Assembly: GCA_017303895.1 (NCBI GenBank)
Contig: JAFLBF010000015.1
Location: 1-64,000 of the forward strand
Reading direction: 5' to 3'
Source: Bacteroidota bacterium
Lineage (GTDB): Bacteria; Bacteroidota; Bacteroidia; 2-12-FULL-35-15
DNA length: 64,000 nucleotides
Of this stretch, positions 4,650-64,000 are shown piece by piece (the first letter of the stretch is position 1; each line of letters opens with the position of its first letter). The notes beneath the pieces were generated by a model. The model worked only from the letters and a program-made list of their open reading frames with translations, searched no databases and had not been told where the DNA came from. The translations under genes were made by a program, and so were the position numbers.

Positions 4650-5030
4650 TTATTCAGCTACTTGAACCATTTTAAATGGTACATTGATGATCGCTTGGTA
4701 ATCTTCTCCTGCTTCCAACATGTCTTCATCATCTTCTTCGTAGTACCAGTTGATCACAACAGCACTTCCTCCTTTATTGATCGCTTCAAGTTTCTTGAAT
4801 ACATCCAAGATGCATTTAGATGAGCTAGTATTGAAATATTCCAATTGGATATTTACGTTTGTGTTTGCTTGTGGTTTAGCAGCATACTTCTCTAACCAAT
4901 CAACCAAAGGCTTGTAAAACTCAATAGAGTTTTCAGGAATAGAGCGTCCTTTGATTTCTAAAAAGCCTTTACCTGTATCAAAAGTGATAGTTGGTGTTTT
5001 TGGTGTTCCTTCAATTGTAATTGTTTCCAT
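4650..5030 (-). CDS. siaC: SiaC-family regulatory phosphoprotein (DUF1987)
   Basis: 126 residues, the full length of the family. In Pseudomonas, SiaC is phosphorylated by SiaB and dephosphorylated by the PP2C phosphatase SiaA; unphosphorylated SiaC binds an effector. The family signature YFNTSSSK is at 65-72, so its Thr falls at residue 68, the number of the phosphorylated Thr I recall for P. aeruginosa SiaC. The N-terminus (TPKTPTITFDTGKGFLEIKGRS) and the acidic C-terminal YYEEDDEDMLEAGEDY also fit. It starts 3 bases after siaB, so both are one transcript. No diguanylate cyclase effector is adjacent, so the downstream target here is unknown. Confidence 0.9.
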   Translation of the reverse strand: METITIEGTPKTPTITFDTGKGFLEIKGRSIPENSIEFYKPLVDWLEKYAAKPQANTNVNIQLEYFNTSSSKCILDVFKKLEAINKGGSAVVINWYYEEDDEDMLEAGEDYQAIINVPFKMVQVAE

Positions 5031-5033
5031 ACG

Positions 5034-5585
5034 TTATTGTTGTTGTGAGATTTTGATGTTTAAACTAAAAAATGAAAATTTATCGTCTACTGGTGCAAAG
5101 TTAAAATTTAATTTTTCACCCGTTTTTCTTGCAATGTCAATCATGCCCAATCCGCCACCACCTTTTAAAGACATTTCTCCGTTGTTCAATACAGCTTTGT
5201 AATAGTCTTTTAATTCCTCTTTCGACAAAAGGTTGATGTCTTCCAATCTTTTTTTCAATCCGGCAACATTCTCATTTTTGATATAGTTGCCAGTGATGAT
5301 ATTATATTGGTTATCGATCCTACCGATCATAAAAATAGCAGAACGGATCTTGTCACTTTGGTCTGCAGCAACTTCATCCATGTGATGGTAAAGATTCTGC
5401 AAGCACTCTACCAAAACATTGTACACCTTCTTCTTGATCTTTGGTTCCTCCTGAAGATTATCCAGTTTGGATTCCATGATCTGTAATATGGATGTCAATA
5501 GTTCAGAAGTAATATCGCCTTTGAATGAAAGCATAATGTTATTACGCTCCATTTTATCGTAAAAATCGTAAATATCTAACATCAT
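5034..5585 (-). CDS. siaB: SiaB-family protein kinase (GHKL fold)
   Basis: 183 residues. SiaB proteins are small GHKL-type kinases that phosphorylate SiaC. A plausible N-box is VLVECLQNLYHHMDE at 58-71, and a Gly-rich ATP-lid motif KGGGGLG is at 141-147. The rest (ISQQQ end) matches the compact family fold with no sensor domain. First gene of a siaB-siaC operon behind a TATATTTG promoter at 5635. Two SpoIIE-type phosphatases that could oppose it are encoded 1-6 kb upstream on the same strand, separated by one lipoprotein gene. Kinase activity on SiaC is inferred from family and neighbour. Confidence 0.85.
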   Translation of the reverse strand: MMLDIYDFYDKMERNNIMLSFKGDITSELLTSILQIMESKLDNLQEEPKIKKKVYNVLVECLQNLYHHMDEVAADQSDKIRSAIFMIGRIDNQYNIITGNYIKNENVAGLKKRLEDINLLSKEELKDYYKAVLNNGEMSLKGGGGLGMIDIARKTGEKLNFNFAPVDDKFSFFSLNIKISQQQ

Positions 5586-5634
5586 AAGTTAAAAAATCGA
5601 TAAAGCTTATTACTTTGACTACTAAATGCTATAG

Positions 5635-5664
5635 CAAATATATAAATTAGTTTTATTAATCAAA
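5635..5664 (-). promoter_or_regulatory. siaBC promoter
   Basis: Minus-strand TATATTTG at 5635-5642 with an upstream TTTG at 5661-5664 (18-base spacer, slightly short of the usual 19-21). The leader to siaB is about 45 bases. Confidence 0.6.
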
Positions 5665-5682
5665 TTTTATTTGAAAAATATA

Positions 5683-5711
5683 AAAGGAAGGCTATTTTTT
5701 AACCTTCCTTT
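5683..5711 (-). terminator. Terminator after lipoprotein gene
   Basis: AAAGGAAGG (5683-5691) pairs with CCTTCCTTT (5703-5711), followed on the minus strand by a T-rich run. It begins 8 bases past the stop. Confidence 0.75.
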
Positions 5712-5718
5712 GAATATG

Positions 5719-6537
5719 TTAATGCATTGTAAATGTAAAGGTATTACCGTTTATGGTAAGTGTCGCCTGACTGTCGCAGTTACCAGTGCCAAAATCTACG
5801 GTTCTTGTTGCTAAACCTTCCGGAGTCAGGTCAATTGTCCCCTTTTCTATCCACTTGCAAGAAGATCTCTTGATAATAGGATTTGTGATGTTTACGCTGT
5901 ATGTTTTTCCATCTCTATTTTTACCATTCGCATTGCCTGAAAAGGAGAATACATCGTTGTAAGGGTCGTTGTCGCCAAATCCTGCTGTTTGGGTAAGTGT
6001 TCGGTCACATTCCCACTCTAAAGTAGCATTGCTAGGTGTTACGCATTTTCCTTTGAAAACCTTTGTGTTAAATCCATATTGAGCAGAGTGGGTGATCTTA
6101 ATGCTGTCAACAGCATAAGAATAACCGTCAACAGAAAAATTCACCAAATTGATCTTAACATAACTTCCGATCGTTAACCAGTGGTCAGAGAATGTAGCAA
6201 TAATCTGTCCTTTACGCAGTTTCCCATCAATGGTGTCGATGCAACCCACTGTTCCGTAGTCTAGTGTCATTGTTACAGGGAATCCGTCCAAGGTATCAGC
6301 CGGGTCGATGATCACTGTTGGACATGCTGCACGCATATTCTTCAACATTTCTTTTACCCCTTGTTCGTTAATACCGTAATTGTTGATGCGTGGAGCCATT
6401 TTAGTGAACTCTGTCTCGCAGATGTTATTATCGATCGCAGATTGTGTTTCTGTATCCGGTTCTTCTTTTTTACAAGAATTAAGTGTTACAGCTACAATTC
6501 CAATGATTGTGAATGCAGAAAATAAAATACGTTTCAT
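5719..6537 (-). CDS. Lipoprotein of unknown function
   Basis: 272 residues. The signal peptide (residues 1-21) ends in a lipobox LNSC at 19-22, so it should be lipidated and exported. The mature part is Thr/Asp-rich, predicted beta, with several Cys and repeated TFSDHWLTIGSYVKINLV-like strands. No catalytic motif or named domain was recognised. It has its own strong promoter (TTTG-N21-TATATTTG at 6561-6593) and terminator, so it is a single-gene unit between siaBC and the phosphatases. Any link to that signalling is positional only. Confidence 0.75.
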   Translation of the reverse strand: MKRILFSAFTIIGIVAVTLNSCKKEEPDTETQSAIDNNICETEFTKMAPRINNYGINEQGVKEMLKNMRAACPTVIIDPADTLDGFPVTMTLDYGTVGCIDTIDGKLRKGQIIATFSDHWLTIGSYVKINLVNFSVDGYSYAVDSIKITHSAQYGFNTKVFKGKCVTPSNATLEWECDRTLTQTAGFGDNDPYNDVFSFSGNANGKNRDGKTYSVNITNPIIKRSSCKWIEKGTIDLTPEGLATRTVDFGTGNCDSQATLTINGNTFTFTMH

Positions 6538-6560
6538 AGTTTGTTTTTGAATTTATATAC

Positions 6561-6593
6561 AAATATAACAAAAAATGGAATTTGCAAGCAAAT
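6561..6593 (-). promoter_or_regulatory. Strong Bacteroidota promoter of the lipoprotein gene
   Basis: Minus-strand TTTG (6590-6593), 21-base spacer, TATATTTG (6561-6568): both elements match the consensus. The leader is about 18 bases. Confidence 0.7.
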
Positions 6594-6597
6594 TCAG

Positions 6598-9500
6598 CTA
6601 AAATCTAATCCCGATCACTAAAATATCGTCTACTTGCTGATAGCTGCCTTTCCACTGATTGAAGGTCTCTTCCAGTTCATTTGCCTGGGTTTGCATGTTT
6701 TTGTCCTGAATTGAAAGTAAAAGCTCATTGAAGCGTTTTACCATGAATTTCTTCCCTTTTTCTCCTCCAAATTGGTCAGCATATCCATCACTGCTCATAT
6801 ATAAGGTATCTCCTCTTTTTAGCTGGATCGTATGACAAGTGAATTTACGGTCTGGATCCAGTTGTGAGCCTCCTATCGGATTTTTATCAGCATCTATTTT
6901 CTTGAATTCCTGCCCGTTAACAATATAAAGTGGGCGATAGGCACCGGCATATTTTACTTCGTTGGTTTGTGTATCAATACTGCATAGTGCCACATCCATT
7001 CCATCACTGGTGTCAACCACATTGGTGCCTTGTTTTAAGGCAGCTTGAACACCTTGATGCAGTGCGTTTAATATAAGATCCGGTTCCGTGATGCCGTTTT
7101 CACTGATGATCTGATTCAATAAGTTATGTCCGATCATACTCATGAAAGCACCCGGAACGCCATGTCCTGTACAATCTACAGTAGCGATGATCTTTTTGCC
7201 ATTCTTTACTCCGAACCAATAAAAATCACCACTTACGATGTCTTTAGGCTTGTAAACCACAAATGATTCAGGGAAATGCTTATAGATCTGCTCCAAAGGG
7301 GGAAGAATAGCCAGCTGGATACGTTTAGCATATTGAATACTGCTGGTGATGTCTTTGTTTTTTTGAGCCAATTCTTGTGTACGCTCTTCAACTTTCTCTT
7401 CCAATATTTTGTTTTCACGCTTAATAGCGCTGGTTCTGTATTTTAGGAATCCCCAGAAGCCTCCGATCACAAGGATCACACAGATGGTATAGAACCATTT
7501 GGTTTGCCAAAAAGGAGGGTTGATGCGAATGTGTAAGGTTACTCCATCGTTGTTCCAGATACCATCATTATTGGCAGCGCGGACTCTGAATACATAATCA
7601 CCCCCTCTTAATTCGGTATAACTCGCATACCGTTGTGTGCTGGCGGGTGACCAATTCTCATCTACGCCTTCAAGCTTGAAGGAATATTTGTTCTTGCCGG
7701 GCATTTGGTAATCCAGAGCAACGAATTCAAATGAGAAGAAATTTTGTCGCCACGATAATTCAATGTATTTTTTATCGTAGATCAATGTGTCCATTTCTAC
7801 TTCCGACCCAAAGCGTTTGTAGGAGGTGATCCTTACTGTCGGAATGTTCTGATTGTCGATGATCTTCTCCGGAAAGAATGCATTAAATCCATTGACCCCG
7901 CCCACAAATATTTCTCCGGTTTTTTTTGACTTAAAAAATGCACCCTGATTGTGTTCTAGACCTTGCAAACCATCATTTACATCGTAATTTCTAAAAGCAG
8001 AGCCATCAATGTTACTTACATTCGGATTAAATTTCGAGATCCCTTTATTGGTAGTCATCCACAGGTTCCCGTTCTTGTCAGGTAAGATACAATAGATATA
8101 GGCGTTTGGCAGACCATCCTTTTCAAAGAAATGGGTGAATTGATCGGTCTTATAGTTTAGTTTGTTTAATCCATTCGTTGTACCAAACCAGATATTCCCC
8201 TGAAAGTCCTCATAGATATGGTTGATAGAGTTGGAGCTGATACTGTTTTGTTTTTCATCTCTCGTATAAAACTTGATCTTCTTCGTTATTGCATCTATTT
8301 TATTTACTCCACCTCCTTCAGTTCCAACCCAAATATTGTTGTTGCTATCCTGAAAAATGGTGTAGATATTATTGCTTGTTAATCCATTGTCGGAATTGTA
8401 ATTGATGAATTCTTTGTTCGTTTTGTTATACGCAAACAATCCACCGCCATAGGTTCCTATCCAGATCAAACCTTGTTTGTCTTCATATATAGTAACAATG
8501 GTTGCATTATCCTGAGGGATGAAAGTTGGATAGCTGGTTGCTTTTTTTGTTCGTTTGTCATACGACAATAACCCACCTCCCCAAGTTCCGATCCAGATCA
8601 AACCTTCTTTATCTTCACATAAGGATAAAACGGTTTTGTTATTGGCAACTGATAAATGAGGATACTGAACGTAGGTGTCGGATTTTCTATCGAGAGTGGT
8701 CAAGCCTCCATTTTTGGTACCTATCCAAAGAATGCCTTCTCTGTCTTCCAGAATGGAGAACACATCATTGGTGAGTAGGCTATTATTGCTGTCATCTCGT
8801 TTCTTGTAATATTTAAATTTACTGCTTGAGCGGAAATGCACATTTATACCGCCTCCTTCAGTTCCTACCCAAACCGAACCTACTTTATCGTGAAGGATGT
8901 ATTTGATCTGATTACTGTTTAAGCTATTTTGATTTTTTTCATCGTAATAGAAATGTCTGAATCGCCCTGTTTTTTTGTAGTATTGATCTATCCCTCCTCC
9001 ATATGTTCCTATCCATAATATTCCATTAGCATCTTCGGTAACCGATGTGATCCTGTCATTTATTAGGCTATTGGGATTGGATGGATTGTTTTTTAAATGA
9101 TTAAGATATTTGCCGGTTTTAGGATCAAAGATCTGCACACCTTCCCCGTAAGTTCCTATCCAGAATATTCCATCTTTATCCTCTAAAATACTTCTAACCT
9201 TATTTGCATTTTCATAGATGAGTTGACCTTTGTTATCTAATTCCTGATAATTTTTAAACGACTTGTTTTTTTTGTCAAATACATTTAAGCCTCCACCATA
9301 AGTTCCGATCCAGATCCGCCCATCGCTTGCTTCCAACAAACACCAGGCACTGTTATTCGATATGGAATTAGGATCCTTCGGATTATTAAGATAGCGTGTA
9401 AAGTTTTTTGTTTTTCTATCCAATGCATTTAAGCCTTCGTCAGTTCCGATCCAAAGAATACCGTCTTTGTCTTCCAGAATAGCTCTGACATTATTATTAC

Positions 9501-9891
9501 TCAGGCTATTTTTAGAATTTTGTTTGCTGAGATAGTGAGTGAATTTACCGGTACTTAAATTGAACGCGTCCAATCCACCACCATTTGTTCCGATCCACAA
9601 TACTCCATTTCTATCTTCAAATAAAGAGTAGATGAAATTGTTGGCAAGGGAATTTGAATCTTGCTGATTGTGTTTATAAACAGTGATGCTGTATCCATCG
9701 TATTTGTTTAATCCATCTTGTGTTCCAAACCACATGAAGCCACGGCTGTCCTGCAATACACAGTTAACTGCACCCATGGATAAACCTTGCTCTGCTGTTA
9801 TATGAGCAAACTTCAGCTCTTGTGCGAACAGAGTAACATTACCCAAAAAGAGTAGCGAGAATAGTAGTTTTAAACAGATCTTATTAAGCAT
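6598..9891 (-). CDS. Propeller-sensor SpoIIE/PP2C-type protein phosphatase
   Basis: 1097 residues with a hybrid-sensor layout. Signal peptide 1-23. Thirteen two-component-regulator propeller repeats (W[IFV]GT..GG signature, about 30-640) suggest two seven-blade propellers. A Y_Y_Y domain (about 700-795) and one membrane helix (about 797-816) follow. Then come a coiled coil (820-850), the linker SSIQYAKRIQLAILPP (850-865) and a SpoIIE phosphatase domain to the end. Metal-binding acidic residues fit D889 (SGDFYW), D906 (DCTGHG), D1035 (SSDGYAD) and D1088/D1089 (VDDILVI). In related proteins this sensor drives a histidine kinase; here the output is Ser/Thr phosphatase. Its likely substrate is a SiaC or STAS-like phosphoprotein (inference). 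Confidence 0.9.
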   Translation of the reverse strand: MLNKICLKLLFSLLFLGNVTLFAQELKFAHITAEQGLSMGAVNCVLQDSRGFMWFGTQDGLNKYDGYSITVYKHNQQDSNSLANNFIYSLFEDRNGVLWIGTNGGGLDAFNLSTGKFTHYLSKQNSKNSLSNNNVRAILEDKDGILWIGTDEGLNALDRKTKNFTRYLNNPKDPNSISNNSAWCLLEASDGRIWIGTYGGGLNVFDKKNKSFKNYQELDNKGQLIYENANKVRSILEDKDGIFWIGTYGEGVQIFDPKTGKYLNHLKNNPSNPNSLINDRITSVTEDANGILWIGTYGGGIDQYYKKTGRFRHFYYDEKNQNSLNSNQIKYILHDKVGSVWVGTEGGGINVHFRSSSKFKYYKKRDDSNNSLLTNDVFSILEDREGILWIGTKNGGLTTLDRKSDTYVQYPHLSVANNKTVLSLCEDKEGLIWIGTWGGGLLSYDKRTKKATSYPTFIPQDNATIVTIYEDKQGLIWIGTYGGGLFAYNKTNKEFINYNSDNGLTSNNIYTIFQDSNNNIWVGTEGGGVNKIDAITKKIKFYTRDEKQNSISSNSINHIYEDFQGNIWFGTTNGLNKLNYKTDQFTHFFEKDGLPNAYIYCILPDKNGNLWMTTNKGISKFNPNVSNIDGSAFRNYDVNDGLQGLEHNQGAFFKSKKTGEIFVGGVNGFNAFFPEKIIDNQNIPTVRITSYKRFGSEVEMDTLIYDKKYIELSWRQNFFSFEFVALDYQMPGKNKYSFKLEGVDENWSPASTQRYASYTELRGGDYVFRVRAANNDGIWNNDGVTLHIRINPPFWQTKWFYTICVILVIGGFWGFLKYRTSAIKRENKILEEKVEERTQELAQKNKDITSSIQYAKRIQLAILPPLEQIYKHFPESFVVYKPKDIVSGDFYWFGVKNGKKIIATVDCTGHGVPGAFMSMIGHNLLNQIISENGITEPDLILNALHQGVQAALKQGTNVVDTSDGMDVALCSIDTQTNEVKYAGAYRPLYIVNGQEFKKIDADKNPIGGSQLDPDRKFTCHTIQLKRGDTLYMSSDGYADQFGGEKGKKFMVKRFNELLLSIQDKNMQTQANELEETFNQWKGSYQQVDDILVIGIRF

Positions 9892-9932
9892 AAATGCTAT
9901 TTAAGAGGTAAAGATAAATAAAATAGAATAAA

Positions 9933-11330
9933 CTAAATTTTGATGCCTATTACCAGAATGTCATCCACTTGTTCGAGTGCTCCTTTCCATTCCAGATGTT
10001 TTTTATTGAGCATTTGTTGTTGCTGAGGCATATCAAGATCTTGAATTTCCAATAAATAATTTTGAAACTGTTTGTACTTTAGTTTTTTCCCTAGTGGTCC
10101 TCCAAATTGATCCGCATACCCATCTGTGAAGAGATAAATGGTATCTCCTTTTTCTAATTGAATGGTTTGATTGCTGAATTTTTTACTCTCATAATTTTCA
10201 TGGTCAGCACCAATTGCAATTTTATCCGGTTTCAGTTCGATCAATTGTTTATTTCTGATCACATATACAGGATTGTTGGCACCGGCATATTCCATGGTCA
10301 TTTTTTGAAAATTAATGGCGCATAGCGACATGTCCATTCCATCTTTGATGGAATTTAAATTTTTTGCCAATTCTTTATTCAGGTAGGACAGTGCATCGGC
10401 CGGACTATTTACCGAGCGTTCAGAGGTGCTCTGATTAAGTATGGTGCTGCCAATGATGCTCATTAGGGCACCCGGAACACCATGTCCGGTGCAATCCACT
10501 GCTGCGATAACAAAAATATTCTCCTGAGGCTTTTCGGCTGTTGGAGTTGTTTTTAAGCTCGTAAACCAATAGAAATCTCCACTTACTATATCCTTTGGAG
10601 TATAATAAATGAAATAATCTTTTAGCACATTTTCAATACGTTCGCTAGGAGGAAGGATCGCATGTTGAATACGTTGAGCATAGGTGATGCTGGCTTTGAT
10701 ATCCTTATTTTTTTCTTCAATGATCTCATTCTTTTCTGCCAATTGCTCATTCGATTTAGCCAATGCTAAACGGGCAATGATCTCTTTCTTTGTCAGATTT
10801 GTGCGTGTATTGATCAGCAGGATGGTGAATAATGCCACCGATAGTGTAAGCAATCCGCCATTGGTAAGAAGCTCATCAATTGAAACGGGACTGTATAAAT
10901 TAAAACAGATGATGTTGGCGATGAATGATACTGCAACGATCCAGATAGAATATTGGATCTGCCATAGAACAAGCATGCCAGCGCCAATGAATAAAGCAAT
11001 GTAGGCGAATGTGTGTTTTTGTATCTCAGAAATATCCATTACATTGTACATATACGCATTTTGGATAGCAATGCCCATAAATGGAATGAAAGCAAGAATA
11101 TGCGGCTTTTCGGTAAGTTTATGTCGAAATAAATAACCGATCAACGTGGCTAACGATACTGTAATTCTCCAGATCAAGAAATCGGTAAAATGTGCTGGAA
11201 CATTAAAGTAGTCTCCAATTGCCCAAAGAGGATTCAATACAACTGCCACCCAAACGACTATCATATGGTATTTGTAGGCAGCTGCATTCAGCTCCTGTTT
11301 CCATGGAATAGTTGTTAGTCGGTGAGGCAT
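9933..11330 (-). CDS. Membrane-sensor SpoIIE/PP2C-type protein phosphatase
   Basis: 465 residues. About six membrane helices in residues 20-175 form an integral-membrane sensor, followed by a coiled coil (180-212). Then comes the pre-catalytic linker SITYAQRIQHAILPP (214-228) and a SpoIIE domain (about 240-465). Metal ligands are visible at D252 (SGDFYW), D279 (DCTGHGVPGA), FTDGYADQFGG and VDDILVIGI. It has its own promoter and lies 41 bases ahead of the propeller phosphatase on the same strand, so the two may be partly co-transcribed. With siaB/siaC nearby it is the best SiaA-like candidate, although SiaA itself has a different sensor. Confidence 0.88.
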   Translation of the reverse strand: MPHRLTTIPWKQELNAAAYKYHMIVVWVAVVLNPLWAIGDYFNVPAHFTDFLIWRITVSLATLIGYLFRHKLTEKPHILAFIPFMGIAIQNAYMYNVMDISEIQKHTFAYIALFIGAGMLVLWQIQYSIWIVAVSFIANIICFNLYSPVSIDELLTNGGLLTLSVALFTILLINTRTNLTKKEIIARLALAKSNEQLAEKNEIIEEKNKDIKASITYAQRIQHAILPPSERIENVLKDYFIYYTPKDIVSGDFYWFTSLKTTPTAEKPQENIFVIAAVDCTGHGVPGALMSIIGSTILNQSTSERSVNSPADALSYLNKELAKNLNSIKDGMDMSLCAINFQKMTMEYAGANNPVYVIRNKQLIELKPDKIAIGADHENYESKKFSNQTIQLEKGDTIYLFTDGYADQFGGPLGKKLKYKQFQNYLLEIQDLDMPQQQQMLNKKHLEWKGALEQVDDILVIGIKI

Positions 11331-60651: not shown

Positions 60652-60674
60652 TATCATACAATATTAAAACGAAG

Positions 60675-60702
60675 AAAGTCCCGGTTTGCCGGGACTTTTT
60701 TT
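60675..60702 (+). terminator. Terminator after the E1 gene
   Basis: AAAGTCCCGG (60675-60684) pairs with CCGGGACTTT (60689-60698), loop TTTG, then T-run. Confidence 0.9.
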
Positions 60703-60774: not shown

Positions 60775-61515
60775 ATGAAAAAAACAGGTATAGCAATTAC
60801 ACTCATAGGATTACCATTGATGGTGCTGTCCATGTTGGATCTGTTTGGAGAGCAACGTATCCCTATACCCATTACAATTCCAATTATGATCGTAAGTTGT
60901 ATCTCTGTTTTTCTAGGTCCTGCTTTGGCTGTTTTCCCGCTTAGTATGGAAAGGAGAAAGAGAATTACCAACAGATCGTTAGTATTCGGAGTCTCTTTAT
61001 TTGGATTGGGTTTTTTCTTTAAAAAAATGCATTGGCCGGGCGCTGCTTTTTTAGTGATCATTGGCGTGTTAATCCTTTGTTTCTTTTCAGGTACGCTTAC
61101 TTGCAAAAGCAATTACGATAAATGGAAATTATTGGCACGAACAAAATTTGACGCTCTGTTTTTGACCTTATGTAATTATGTAGGTATCGGTGGATTGTTG
61201 TTAGGGATACTCTTTAAAATTCAACATTGGCCTTTAGCGCAAGCCATTGCCATTGGAGGAATGGTGACGCTCGCTGTAGGAATGTTGATTGGGAACCATA
61301 AGTTTAAGAAGGAAGTGATCACAAGAAAAGAAACTGCCGATAAATTGAAAGAAACGCTTGATCAGCTGGAAGAGCAGCATCAAATACTTGAGGAAAAACA
61401 AAAAGAAATTATTGGGAGTATTACCTACGCAAAGCGCATTCAATCATCTTTATTGCCAACTGAAAAATATATTAATTCCCATTTGACACGTTTAAGGGAT
61501 GAAAATAGCCTGTAA
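60775..61515 (+). CDS. GldL-like membrane sensor ending in a SpoIIE pre-catalytic linker (no phosphatase)
   Basis: 246 residues. About six membrane helices (5-170) include two GldL-like motifs, FFFKKMHWPGAAF (80-92) and ILFKIQHWPLAQA (145-157). Residues 185-212 form a coiled coil, followed by SITYAKRIQSSLLPTEKY (215-232), the segment that leads into the phosphatase domain in the two SpoIIE proteins at 6598 and 9933. Here the chain stops 14 residues later, at TAA 61513-61515. The 53 bases before the next gene cannot encode a phosphatase remnant. Likely a membrane adaptor or decoy; the function is not known. Confidence 0.75.
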   Translation: MKKTGIAITLIGLPLMVLSMLDLFGEQRIPIPITIPIMIVSCISVFLGPALAVFPLSMERRKRITNRSLVFGVSLFGLGFFFKKMHWPGAAFLVIIGVLILCFFSGTLTCKSNYDKWKLLARTKFDALFLTLCNYVGIGGLLLGILFKIQHWPLAQAIAIGGMVTLAVGMLIGNHKFKKEVITRKETADKLKETLDQLEEQHQILEEKQKEIIGSITYAKRIQSSLLPTEKYINSHLTRLRDENSL

Positions 61516-61529
61516 ATCTTTTTGAAGTG

Positions 61530-61555
61530 CAGCCCTAATTTCGGGGCTGTTTTTG
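61530..61555 (+). terminator. Terminator between the two linker proteins
   Basis: CAGCCC (61530-61535) pairs with GGGCTG (61544-61549), then TTTTTG. A short stem, but correctly placed. Confidence 0.65.
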
Positions 61556-61556
61556 T

Positions 61557-61564
61557 TATATTTG
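61557..61564 (+). promoter_or_regulatory. Leaderless -7 box of the TPR sensor gene
   Basis: TATATTTG ends 4 bases before ATG 61569. Confidence 0.65.
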
Positions 61565-61568
61565 TTAT

Positions 61569-62930
61569 ATGCGACCAATTAATTTTATTAGCATATTTAT
61601 TTTCATTATTCTGCTTTTCTCAAGCGGGAATATTGAAGCAAACAAATTGGATTCTTTATACACGGTGCTTAGATCAACTCAAGAAGATACAGCTAAGGTG
61701 GAACTCTATTTGAACATAATTGAGGAAACCTATACCATTGCACCTGACAGCGTAATACCACTTTCGGAAAAATTGATCACGATTGTTGAAGGTGCACTTC
61801 AAAAAGTAAGCAAGGATAAAGAACATTATTTATTGGCAGTTAAAGCAAATTGCTTTAATAATATTGGAGCCATTCTTAATCAAAAAGGAGATATAAAAAA
61901 TGCCTTGAGCTATTTTCATAAAAGTCTTAAAATAAAGGAAACACTTGGTGAAAAAAAGGCTGTTTCCAGCACATTAAACAATATTGGTTACCTGTACGGT
62001 ACAATTGGCGACAGAGACAATGCGCTATTGTATTACAATAGGAGTTTAAAGATAAAGCAAGAGATTGGTGATAAAAAAGGGATCTCAAGAATATTAAATA
62101 ATCTCGGAAGTTTATATGATGAAATAGGAGATACAGTGATGTCACTCCGTTCTTACACTCAAAGTTTGAAAATTGCTGAGGAGTTGCACGATTCGGTGGG
62201 GATGTCATTGGCCCTGAATAATATCGGATTTACCTATGATAAAAAAGGGGCATCAGATGAAGCCTTGTTCTATTATTCTAAAAGTTATGATATAAGAATT
62301 CGTTTGAATGATCAGCAAGGTATTGCTGAGTCGCTGAACAATTTAGGGAATATCTATCTCAAAAATGGAAATGTGTCAAAAGCTCAACAAATGGGTGAAA
62401 AGGCTTTGCAAATATCAAAAGAATTGCAATATCCGGAGTATATCAAACGCTCTTCCAACTTGTTGAAAGATATTTATTTAAAGCAAGGAGATTATGCAAA
62501 AGCCTATAAAATGTTAGATCTGTATATGGTCATGCGTGATAGTATCATGAAAGAAGAAAATAGAGATGCAGCCCTAAAAAGATCATTTGAATATGAATAT
62601 GAATTAAAAACAACAGCGGATAGTATTAAAAATTTTGAAGTCAAGCAAAAAGAACAGATCTCCTATCAAAATGAGATCGCAAGGCAAAGAGCTTATACCT
62701 ATGGAGGTATAATTGGTTTTGTGTTGATGCTGATCATTGCTGTAATTTCTTACAAAGCCTATCAGCAAAAACAAAAAGCAAATGAGGCGATAATGATTCA
62801 AAAAAAGATCATTGAGGAAAAACAAAAAGAGGTGCTTGCCTCCATCAATTATGCTAAACGTATTCAACAATCGATCTTGCCAACAGCAAAATATATTGAG
62901 CAAAGTTTTAATCGCTTAAAAAATAAATGA
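61569..62930 (+). CDS. TPR membrane sensor ending in a SpoIIE pre-catalytic linker (no phosphatase)
   Basis: 453 residues. Signal peptide 1-22. Seven or so TPR units (about 75-335) with the repeated LNNIG-LY---GD---AL-YY-KSL pattern, as in sensor proteins with extracytoplasmic TPR domains. Single membrane helix about 378-397, coiled coil (QQKQKANEAIMIQKKIIEEKQKE), then SINYAKRIQQSILPTAKY (425-442) and 11 more residues to the stop. As in the preceding gene, the SpoIIE domain is absent. Its stop overlaps the start of the next TPR gene (ATGATGA), so the two are coupled. Confidence 0.8.
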   Translation: MRPINFISIFIFIILLFSSGNIEANKLDSLYTVLRSTQEDTAKVELYLNIIEETYTIAPDSVIPLSEKLITIVEGALQKVSKDKEHYLLAVKANCFNNIGAILNQKGDIKNALSYFHKSLKIKETLGEKKAVSSTLNNIGYLYGTIGDRDNALLYYNRSLKIKQEIGDKKGISRILNNLGSLYDEIGDTVMSLRSYTQSLKIAEELHDSVGMSLALNNIGFTYDKKGASDEALFYYSKSYDIRIRLNDQQGIAESLNNLGNIYLKNGNVSKAQQMGEKALQISKELQYPEYIKRSSNLLKDIYLKQGDYAKAYKMLDLYMVMRDSIMKEENRDAALKRSFEYEYELKTTADSIKNFEVKQKEQISYQNEIARQRAYTYGGIIGFVLMLIIAVISYKAYQQKQKANEAIMIQKKIIEEKQKEVLASINYAKRIQQSILPTAKYIEQSFNRLKNK

Positions 62931-64000
62931 TGACAAGTCCGTTTAATGTTCGTTTTGTCTTTAAGGCAGCACTGTTTTTATCGGTGTTATTATCCTCTAT
63001 TGACTTGTCTGCACAAAAGGAGATAGATTCTTTGATCCATCTTTTACAGTCGGCTAAAAAAGATACTTTCCAGCTTAGCATTTTAAATCAGATCGCTGAA
63101 AAAAGTACAGATGATAATCTATGGCCCATCTATAATAAAAAGATGGAACAATTAGCACTGGAGTTGATGAACAGCAAAAATGCAAAGATCAGTCGGAAAG
63201 CTAAGATGCATTTCGCCAATTCTCAGATCAATACCGGCTATCTTCACAACATGAATGGGGTATTGGATAGTTCTGTTGTTTATTATCAGAGGGCATTGGA
63301 TATCATGCAGGAATTAGGTGATAAAATAGGAATGGCGGCAGCATTGAACAATATCGGTTATGTGTTTAAATCACAAGGCGATATTTTGAGCGCACTCGAC
63401 TGTTATCATCGAAGCTTAAAGTTGTATGAAAGTATGAAGGATCAAAAAGGTATTGCCAATTCCTTGAATAATTTAGCGATCATCTATAGCCGGCAGGGCG
63501 ACACCAAAACTGCGATTAATTACAACTTAAGAAGCATTGAGATCGCAAAAAAATTAAAAGATAGTTTGAGTCTGGGGATATCTATGAATAATCTGGCTTT
63601 GCTCTATCACAAACGGAATAAGCCTGAAGAAGCATTGAAGAATTTAAGAGAAGCCTTGGTGATCCAGGAAAAGATCGGTGACCTGGAAGGTGTTGCCAAT
63701 TCGTATAACAATATCGGTTATGTTTACGAAGAAAGTAATGACATCGATAAGGCGCTGGAAAACTATTTGCTGGCATATCGTATGTCAAAAAATGGAAGTG
63801 ATAAACCTGTATTGGTGAGCACAGCTATAAATGTCGGGACACTTTATTTGAAAAAGAAAAATACAACTGAGGCTGTAAAGTATGCACAAGAGGCCTTTCA
63901 GTTGGCGAAAGAAATTGAATATGTGAATGAATTGGCCGATGCTGCTGATTTAATGAGTCAGGTATATAAATTAAAGAACGATTATAAGAATGCACTGGAG
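62927..64000 (+). CDS. TPR sensor protein, C-terminus beyond the window
   Basis: ATG 62927 overlaps the previous stop (62928-62930) and the frame stays open to the right edge (358 codons visible). After a signal-like segment (FVFKAALFLSVLLSSIDLSAQ) it has a TPR array with the same LNNIG-Y signature (MAAALNNIGYVFKSQGD, SLNNLAIIYSRQGD, NSYNNIGYVYEESND). By analogy with the coupled gene, a membrane helix and coiled coil should follow. Whether it ends in a SpoIIE phosphatase, a kinase or only the linker cannot be seen here. Confidence 0.8.
   Translation, partial: MMTSPFNVRFVFKAALFLSVLLSSIDLSAQKEIDSLIHLLQSAKKDTFQLSILNQIAEKSTDDNLWPIYNKKMEQLALELMNSKNAKISRKAKMHFANSQINTGYLHNMNGVLDSSVVYYQRALDIMQELGDKIGMAAALNNIGYVFKSQGDILSALDCYHRSLKLYESMKDQKGIANSLNNLAIIYSRQGDTKTAINYNLRSIEIAKKLKDSLSLGISMNNLALLYHKRNKPEEALKNLREALVIQEKIGDLEGVANSYNNIGYVYEESNDIDKALENYLLAYRMSKNGSDKPVLVSTAINVGTLYLKKKNTTEAVKYAQEAFQLAKEIEYVNELADAADLMSQVYKLKNDYKNALE

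Follow-up and report, generated by a model that had tools for sequence, protein, structure and literature searches.

Near the end of the window, by which we mean the whole 64,000-nucleotide stretch of Bacteroidota DNA that was analyzed, there are two adjacent genes for proteins of 246 and 453 residues (sensor 1 and sensor 2; Table 1). As the first-pass annotation had observed, both proteins close with the helix found ahead of the catalytic domain in SpoIIE/SiaA-type phosphatases, and then stop; their C-terminal ends are EEKQKEIIGSITYAKRIQSSLLPTEKYINSHLTRLRDENSL and EEKQKEVLASINYAKRIQQSILPTAKYIEQSFNRLKNK, respectively. A search with PF07228 (SpoIIE/PPM, including the metal-binding aspartates) gave no match in either protein. 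There was also no phosphatase remnant 3' of either stop, that is, in the 53 bp after sensor 1 or at the ATGA overlap after sensor 2, in agreement with the annotation. Its proposal that the two genes have separate promoters was not borne out, as promoter-like matches occurred at chance level (8 found, 9.6 expected). The second gene overlaps a third by 4 bp (ATGA, at 62927). This third gene encodes an intact phosphatase of 727 residues whose SpoIIE domain (C7:64499-65107) lies outside the window, and a third tail-only TPR sensor, of 448 residues, begins 16 bp after it, beyond the window.

Table 1. Features of the window discussed in the text, in order of position.
Feature	Position	Strand	Basis
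SiaC-family protein, possible substrate type	4662..5015	-	PF09345 154.7 bits
SiaB-family kinase, possible opposing kinase	5034..5585	-	NF038262 170.6 bits (cut-off 85), PF19788
Full-length phosphatase for comparison, Reg_prop sensor	6598..9891	-	PF07228
Full-length phosphatase for comparison, membrane sensor	9933..11330	-	PF07228; 6K4E alignment runs through linker helix
Terminator-like hairpin before sensor 1	60671..60702	+	
Tail-only sensor 1, 246 aa	60775..61515	+	ORF; GldL-like multi-helix membrane domain, long helix, tail
Tail module of sensor 1, residues 205-246	61387..61512	+	tail profile 79.6 bits
Terminator-like hairpin after sensor 1	61529..61550	+	
Tail-only sensor 2, 453 aa	61569..62930	+	ORF; TPR repeats, one membrane helix, tail
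Tail module of sensor 2, residues 415-453	62811..62927	+	tail profile 77.5 bits
Start of intact TPR-linker-SpoIIE phosphatase, 727 aa	62927..64000	+	ORF runs past window end

The N-terminal parts of the two proteins are different. Sensor 1 resembles the GldL/PorL motor protein in that it scores above the Pfam cut-off for GldL_N (PF22827; 29.8 bits, cut-off 24), but it falls well below the cut-off of the GldL/PorL equivalog (TIGR03513; 24.7 bits, cut-off 68.3). Sensor 2 matched TPR_12 (3.8e-34). An AF2 model of the 246-residue protein, of modest confidence (pLDDT 73), has membrane-type helices, then a helix at residues 155-225 and, past a break at LLP, another at residues 229-244; YAKRIQ is predicted to lie inside the one long helix, ahead of the break.

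The tail has the consensus KQKEIIDSI-YAKRIQ-SLLPTEKYIEK-L-RLKK-stop. An alignment of 87 tail proteins had columns that were invariant, or almost so, only in the coiled coil and the tail (Q201, S215, I216, Y218, A219, R221, I222, Q223, P228, Y232 and I233, in the numbering of the 246-residue protein); the sensor was of the TPR type in 74 of the 87 and contained GldL_N in three. The annotation had equated the tail with the pre-catalytic block of the phosphatases at 6598 and 9933. This equivalence holds as far as YA[KQ]RIQ-x-[AS]-[IL]-LP. The TEKYIE...RL block that follows is absent from both phosphatases, which have ILPPLEQIYKHFPESFVVYKPKDIVSGDFYW and ILPPSERIENVLKDYFIYYTPKDIVSGDFYW, and the tail is therefore a variant of its own and not a cut phosphatase linker. 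The two kinds of sequence diverge after YAKRIQ, tails continuing as SLLPTEKYIEK-L-RLKK-stop and phosphatases as AILP----L---LP-SFV-YKPKDIVSGDFYW. A profile of 40 columns built from tails gave 66-92 bits on the eight tail-only proteins of the host genome, and none of the phosphatase linkers of that genome scored above 53.5 bits. The tail of sensor 1 also aligned with positions 384-431 of the SiaA model NF038263 (E 0.004, 15.7 bits, a match that is weak alone). In terms of the PPM fold, the tail is the helix-break-helix at its N-terminus, named alpha1-alpha2 in SiaA and linker plus alpha0 in RsbU; in relatives made as one chain, this element is part of the dimer interface through which activity is controlled.

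Tail-only proteins are numerous and widespread. The host genome encodes 33 SpoIIE domains and eight tail-only proteins, the latter distributed over four contigs (three on C7, three on C5, one on C1 and one on C12), and we gathered 116 complete, distinct tail-only proteins from related Bacteroidota, with from 1 to about 32 tail genes per genome. One genome (G003, contig C58) has a tandem array of ten. The C-terminus lay 22-36 residues beyond the Y of YAKRIQ in all but one of the 116 proteins, with a mode of 25-27. The tail was the best-conserved part of these proteins and was under stronger purifying selection than the sensor (pooled pN/pS of 0.215 for the tail and 0.421 for the sensor, over 163 homologous pairs that are not mutually independent). 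It was conceivable that the closest homologues of the window proteins would all have an intact SpoIIE domain; instead, three congeners (G009, G011 and G025) carry tail-only orthologues of the GldL-like protein, which are 51-56% identical to it and stop at nearly the same position.

These data bear on the possibility that tail-only proteins are products of accidental truncation or assembly error, which the annotation had judged unlikely. A few vestigial-looking tail ORFs of 72-94 residues (G043, L235, L252 and L255) would fit such an origin. One of them, an 83-residue tail ORF (L256:8012-8263, minus strand) in G043, a genome without a catalytic subunit, has no recognisable sensor and looks like a relic. 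The existence of 116 distinct complete proteins with a conserved stop and with purifying selection strongest in the tail, the tail-only orthologues in several species, and the lack of a downstream remnant refute truncation as a general explanation, and we consider it extremely improbable for the proteins described here. The view that these are phosphatase-less sensor subunits, in which the coiled coil plus YAKRIQ forms a conserved module, is thus supported. Weaker matches to the profile (1e-16 to 1e-14; in G021, G024, G030, G036, G101, G110 and G206) were not counted as tails. Those listed lie in reading frames of 448-1268 residues, most of them >560, and those inspected (G030, G206, G024 and G021) run on into a phosphatase domain.

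The host genome also encodes a free catalytic protein of 236 residues (C1:593765-594475), which is a PPM domain alone (PF07228, 85.9 bits at C1:593768-594349) and has a tail gene directly adjoining. The same protein adjoins tail genes in three other genomes (G001, G011 and G019) and lies near one in a fourth (G009). GDFY, ADCTGHG, DG and DD are invariant in 41 members of the family, so that the catalytic aspartates are kept. The N-terminus, MET-TETK-FFILYKPKDIVSGDFY, starts just past the position of the tail helix, and the helix itself is missing. Against the SiaA model NF038263 the protein aligned at positions 439-656 (E 1.6e-40, 139.3 bits). It is not a SiaA: that equivalog is a single chain scoring >700 bits, and here the catalytic piece gives 139.3 bits and the tail piece 15.7 bits. 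The only solved sequence relative is SiaA-PP2C (6K4E), in which the equivalent stretch, YASLIQRAILPDRQLSATLGEHHFILWKPRDVV, covers both the tail half and the catalytic half. Modelled with AF2 (pLDDT 82, pTM 0.84), the free protein opens on a beta strand, lacks a helix at the N-terminus and is matched best by 6K4E. Judged from alignment and predicted structure, the tail and the free catalytic protein correspond to parts of a single fold, each having the piece that the other lacks. A tree of 117 PPM domains placed 46 of 47 free catalytic proteins in one clade (SH-aLRT 99), which fits a single main origin with later multiplication of the sensors. The remaining free phosphatase domain (L207:6989-7684, plus strand) lies outside this clade and may represent a separate fission.

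We compared the distribution of tail and catalytic genes over genomes. In a class sample of 395 genomes, 24 had both, none had the catalytic gene only, one had a tail only (G344) and 370 had neither (Fisher 1.5e-37, a value that ignores relatedness and takes the genomes as unrelated). In 119 relatives, a sample that overlaps the first, the corresponding numbers were 19, 0, 2 (G003 and G043) and 98. The pair was present in eight family codes (f1, f8, f16, f30, f33, f37, f41 and f44), some of which also hold genomes with neither part, and no genome had more than one free catalytic gene. In a phylum sample (395 genomes, 171 genera) either part was found in the host genome only, indicating that the system is limited to certain Bacteroidia families. 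G043 and G344 each have one tail, and G003 has 29, with no catalytic gene found in any of the three. The tail array of G003 is syntenic to an array in G025 that has the catalytic gene at its end, but it runs off the end of its contig, and the missing gene is therefore probably an assembly gap.

The two kinds of gene are also often neighbors. The catalytic gene has a tail gene as its immediate neighbor on the same strand at 20 of 44 loci; the tail gene is upstream in 18 of the 20, and the gap is mostly 4-36 bp. Tail upstream of catalytic gene is the order expected from fission of a sensor-linker-phosphatase gene. The other 24 loci have no directly adjoining tail gene; five of these have a full-length phosphatase as neighbor.

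There were also cases in which orthologous sensors end in a tail in one genome and in a phosphatase domain in another. A tail-only protein of 984 residues in G003 is 64% identical over its full length to the sensor part of a 1204-residue full phosphatase in the matching array of G025; the tail-only member has SLLPTEKYI and the full member has SLLANEELLRKNLPEHF. Likewise, the sensors of a tail-only protein in G001 (L133) and of the host phosphatase starting at 62927 are 68% identical, and the tail of the former differs from the linker of the latter in the same way. Since orthologous sensors exchange the PPM domain for the tail consensus, the consensus accompanies absence of the catalytic domain. 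This association suggests that the split form has a requirement of its own.

We estimate a probability of roughly 70% that the two window proteins serve as sensor subunits of a phosphatase of the SiaA/SpoIIE type that is split into separate chains. A coiled coil would join the tail to the sensor, which is a GldL-like membrane domain in one protein and TPR repeats with a single membrane helix in the other, and the catalytic domain would be the separate 236-residue protein, encoded once per genome and without the tail segment. In RsbU and its relatives, a coiled-coil linker dimerises and activates the PPM domains, and such linkers have been proposed to be exchangeable between sensors (PMC12143880); SiaA-PP2C is a homodimer formed by helices alpha1-alpha3 (PMC7647112). 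From these two precedents we infer that a dimer of tail-bearing sensors may present its two tail helices in trans to two catalytic subunits, which the helices would pair and thereby switch on. Many sensors (eight in the host, about 30 in some relatives) would feed one catalytic subunit. We also favor, with somewhat less confidence, a hub in which up to about 30 sensors compete for the one free subunit by supplying its missing dimerisation helix in trans. In this view, an enzyme with one sensor would have become an integrator shared by many when a SiaA-like gene underwent fission, and sensors would still pass from the fused to the split form and back.

Some observations go against the split phosphatase. 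In the window, the tails adjoin a full-length phosphatase and not a free subunit; over half of the catalytic loci (24 of 44) have no adjoining tail; and G003, G043 and G344 have tails with no catalytic gene detected. The same three genomes, the homology of tails to linkers, and the placement of tail genes beside full phosphatases in the host C7 and C5 clusters, including the 4-bp overlap in the window, would be expected if tails form heterodimers with full-length SpoIIE phosphatases by way of the linker helix common to both, and so supply these enzymes with further sensors. This was the partner that the annotation had proposed. The sensor subunits themselves are genuine, and one full-length phosphatase does adjoin the window tails, but tails track the free catalytic subunit, and genomes rich in full-length phosphatases that have no free subunit carry no tails (for example G036, with 19 strong phosphatase-domain matches). 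In addition, the residues after LLP differ consistently between tails and full-length linkers, and full-length enzymes already have the helix. It therefore seems unlikely that docking of this kind is the general role of the tails, and possible that some of the window tails do dock in this way. In the second host cluster (L062, G000:C5:58822-66485), three tail-only sensors lie between two full phosphatases; a membrane sensor and its TPR neighbor there have nearly identical tails, which suggests exchange of tails between unrelated sensors.

The predicted long coiled coil could also mean that the tail merely dimerises sensors or binds some other protein, with no phosphatase output, and that the co-occurrence reflects common inheritance from the fission event. 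This seems less likely still. The tail is homologous to the helix-break-helix that packs on the PPM domain, and is not just a coiled coil; its most conserved positions are in YAKRIQ-LP-KYI; and a plain dimeriser need not vanish along with the catalytic gene.

If the window proteins belong to a split phosphatase, as we prefer, a SiaC-like protein is its likely substrate. The host genome has four matches to PF19788 (SiaB) and five to PF09345 (SiaC), including the pair at 4662-5585, and from these matches we expect that a SiaC-like protein phosphorylated by a SiaB-like kinase would be dephosphorylated by the paired catalytic subunits, which would oppose the kinase. The SiaA-SiaB-SiaC system of Pseudomonas aeruginosa (NF038263, 6K4E) is similar in that the catalytic piece and the tail align with adjoining parts of SiaA and in that SiaB- and SiaC-family proteins are present. 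It differs in that SiaA is one chain with one sensor, whereas here the sensor plus helix and the enzyme are on separate genes in a many-to-one arrangement, and in the score of the free protein (139 bits, against a SiaA cut-off of 700). Phosphatases of the RsbU/RsbP type (PMC12143880) likewise have a coiled-coil linker before the PPM domain and varied sensors on a common linker, and by analogy the same activation may apply; the RsbU linker acts in cis and is rigidified by a separate partner, RsbT, whereas here the partner would supply the linker helix itself. If this is correct, a naturally split version would provide an independent test of the linker-helix model proposed for RsbU activation, with a simple in-vitro handle, as helix and enzyme can be mixed.

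The organization has a parallel in bacterial chemotaxis, where many chemoreceptors share the kinase CheA. In both cases many sensors with a common helical tip would act on one catalytic protein; the parallel is an analogy only, as there is no homology and the enzyme is a phosphatase here and a kinase there. To our knowledge, partner-switching phosphatases have been described as single chains with one sensor each. Searches of open journal full text (preprints apart) returned no paper with a title or abstract on tail-only sensors or a shared free catalytic subunit; a bacterial PP2C survey (PMC12088040) was covered by term search. A split phosphatase would assign a function to TPR and membrane proteins that number in the dozens per genome and are described in family libraries by their sensor repeats only, and would predict that Bacteroidota lineages seen almost solely in metagenomes have a signalling hub of the many-to-one kind.

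Three further observations concern the partner-switch genes and full-length phosphatases. Within the window, the SiaC-SiaB pair has the two SpoIIE phosphatases upstream of it (4662-11330, minus strand), an arrangement resembling SiaABC within a Bacteroidota genome. A bin labelled Candidatus Wolfebacteria contains a full-length linker-SpoIIE phosphatase of the same type (L238:5687-7690, plus strand), probably on a misbinned Bacteroidota contig. Elsewhere in the host genome (G000:C12:297196-298550, plus strand; L292, L297 and L299), two SiaB-type domains are in one reading frame of 387 residues, a tandem SiaB fusion that adjoins a SiaC gene and a convergent phosphatase.
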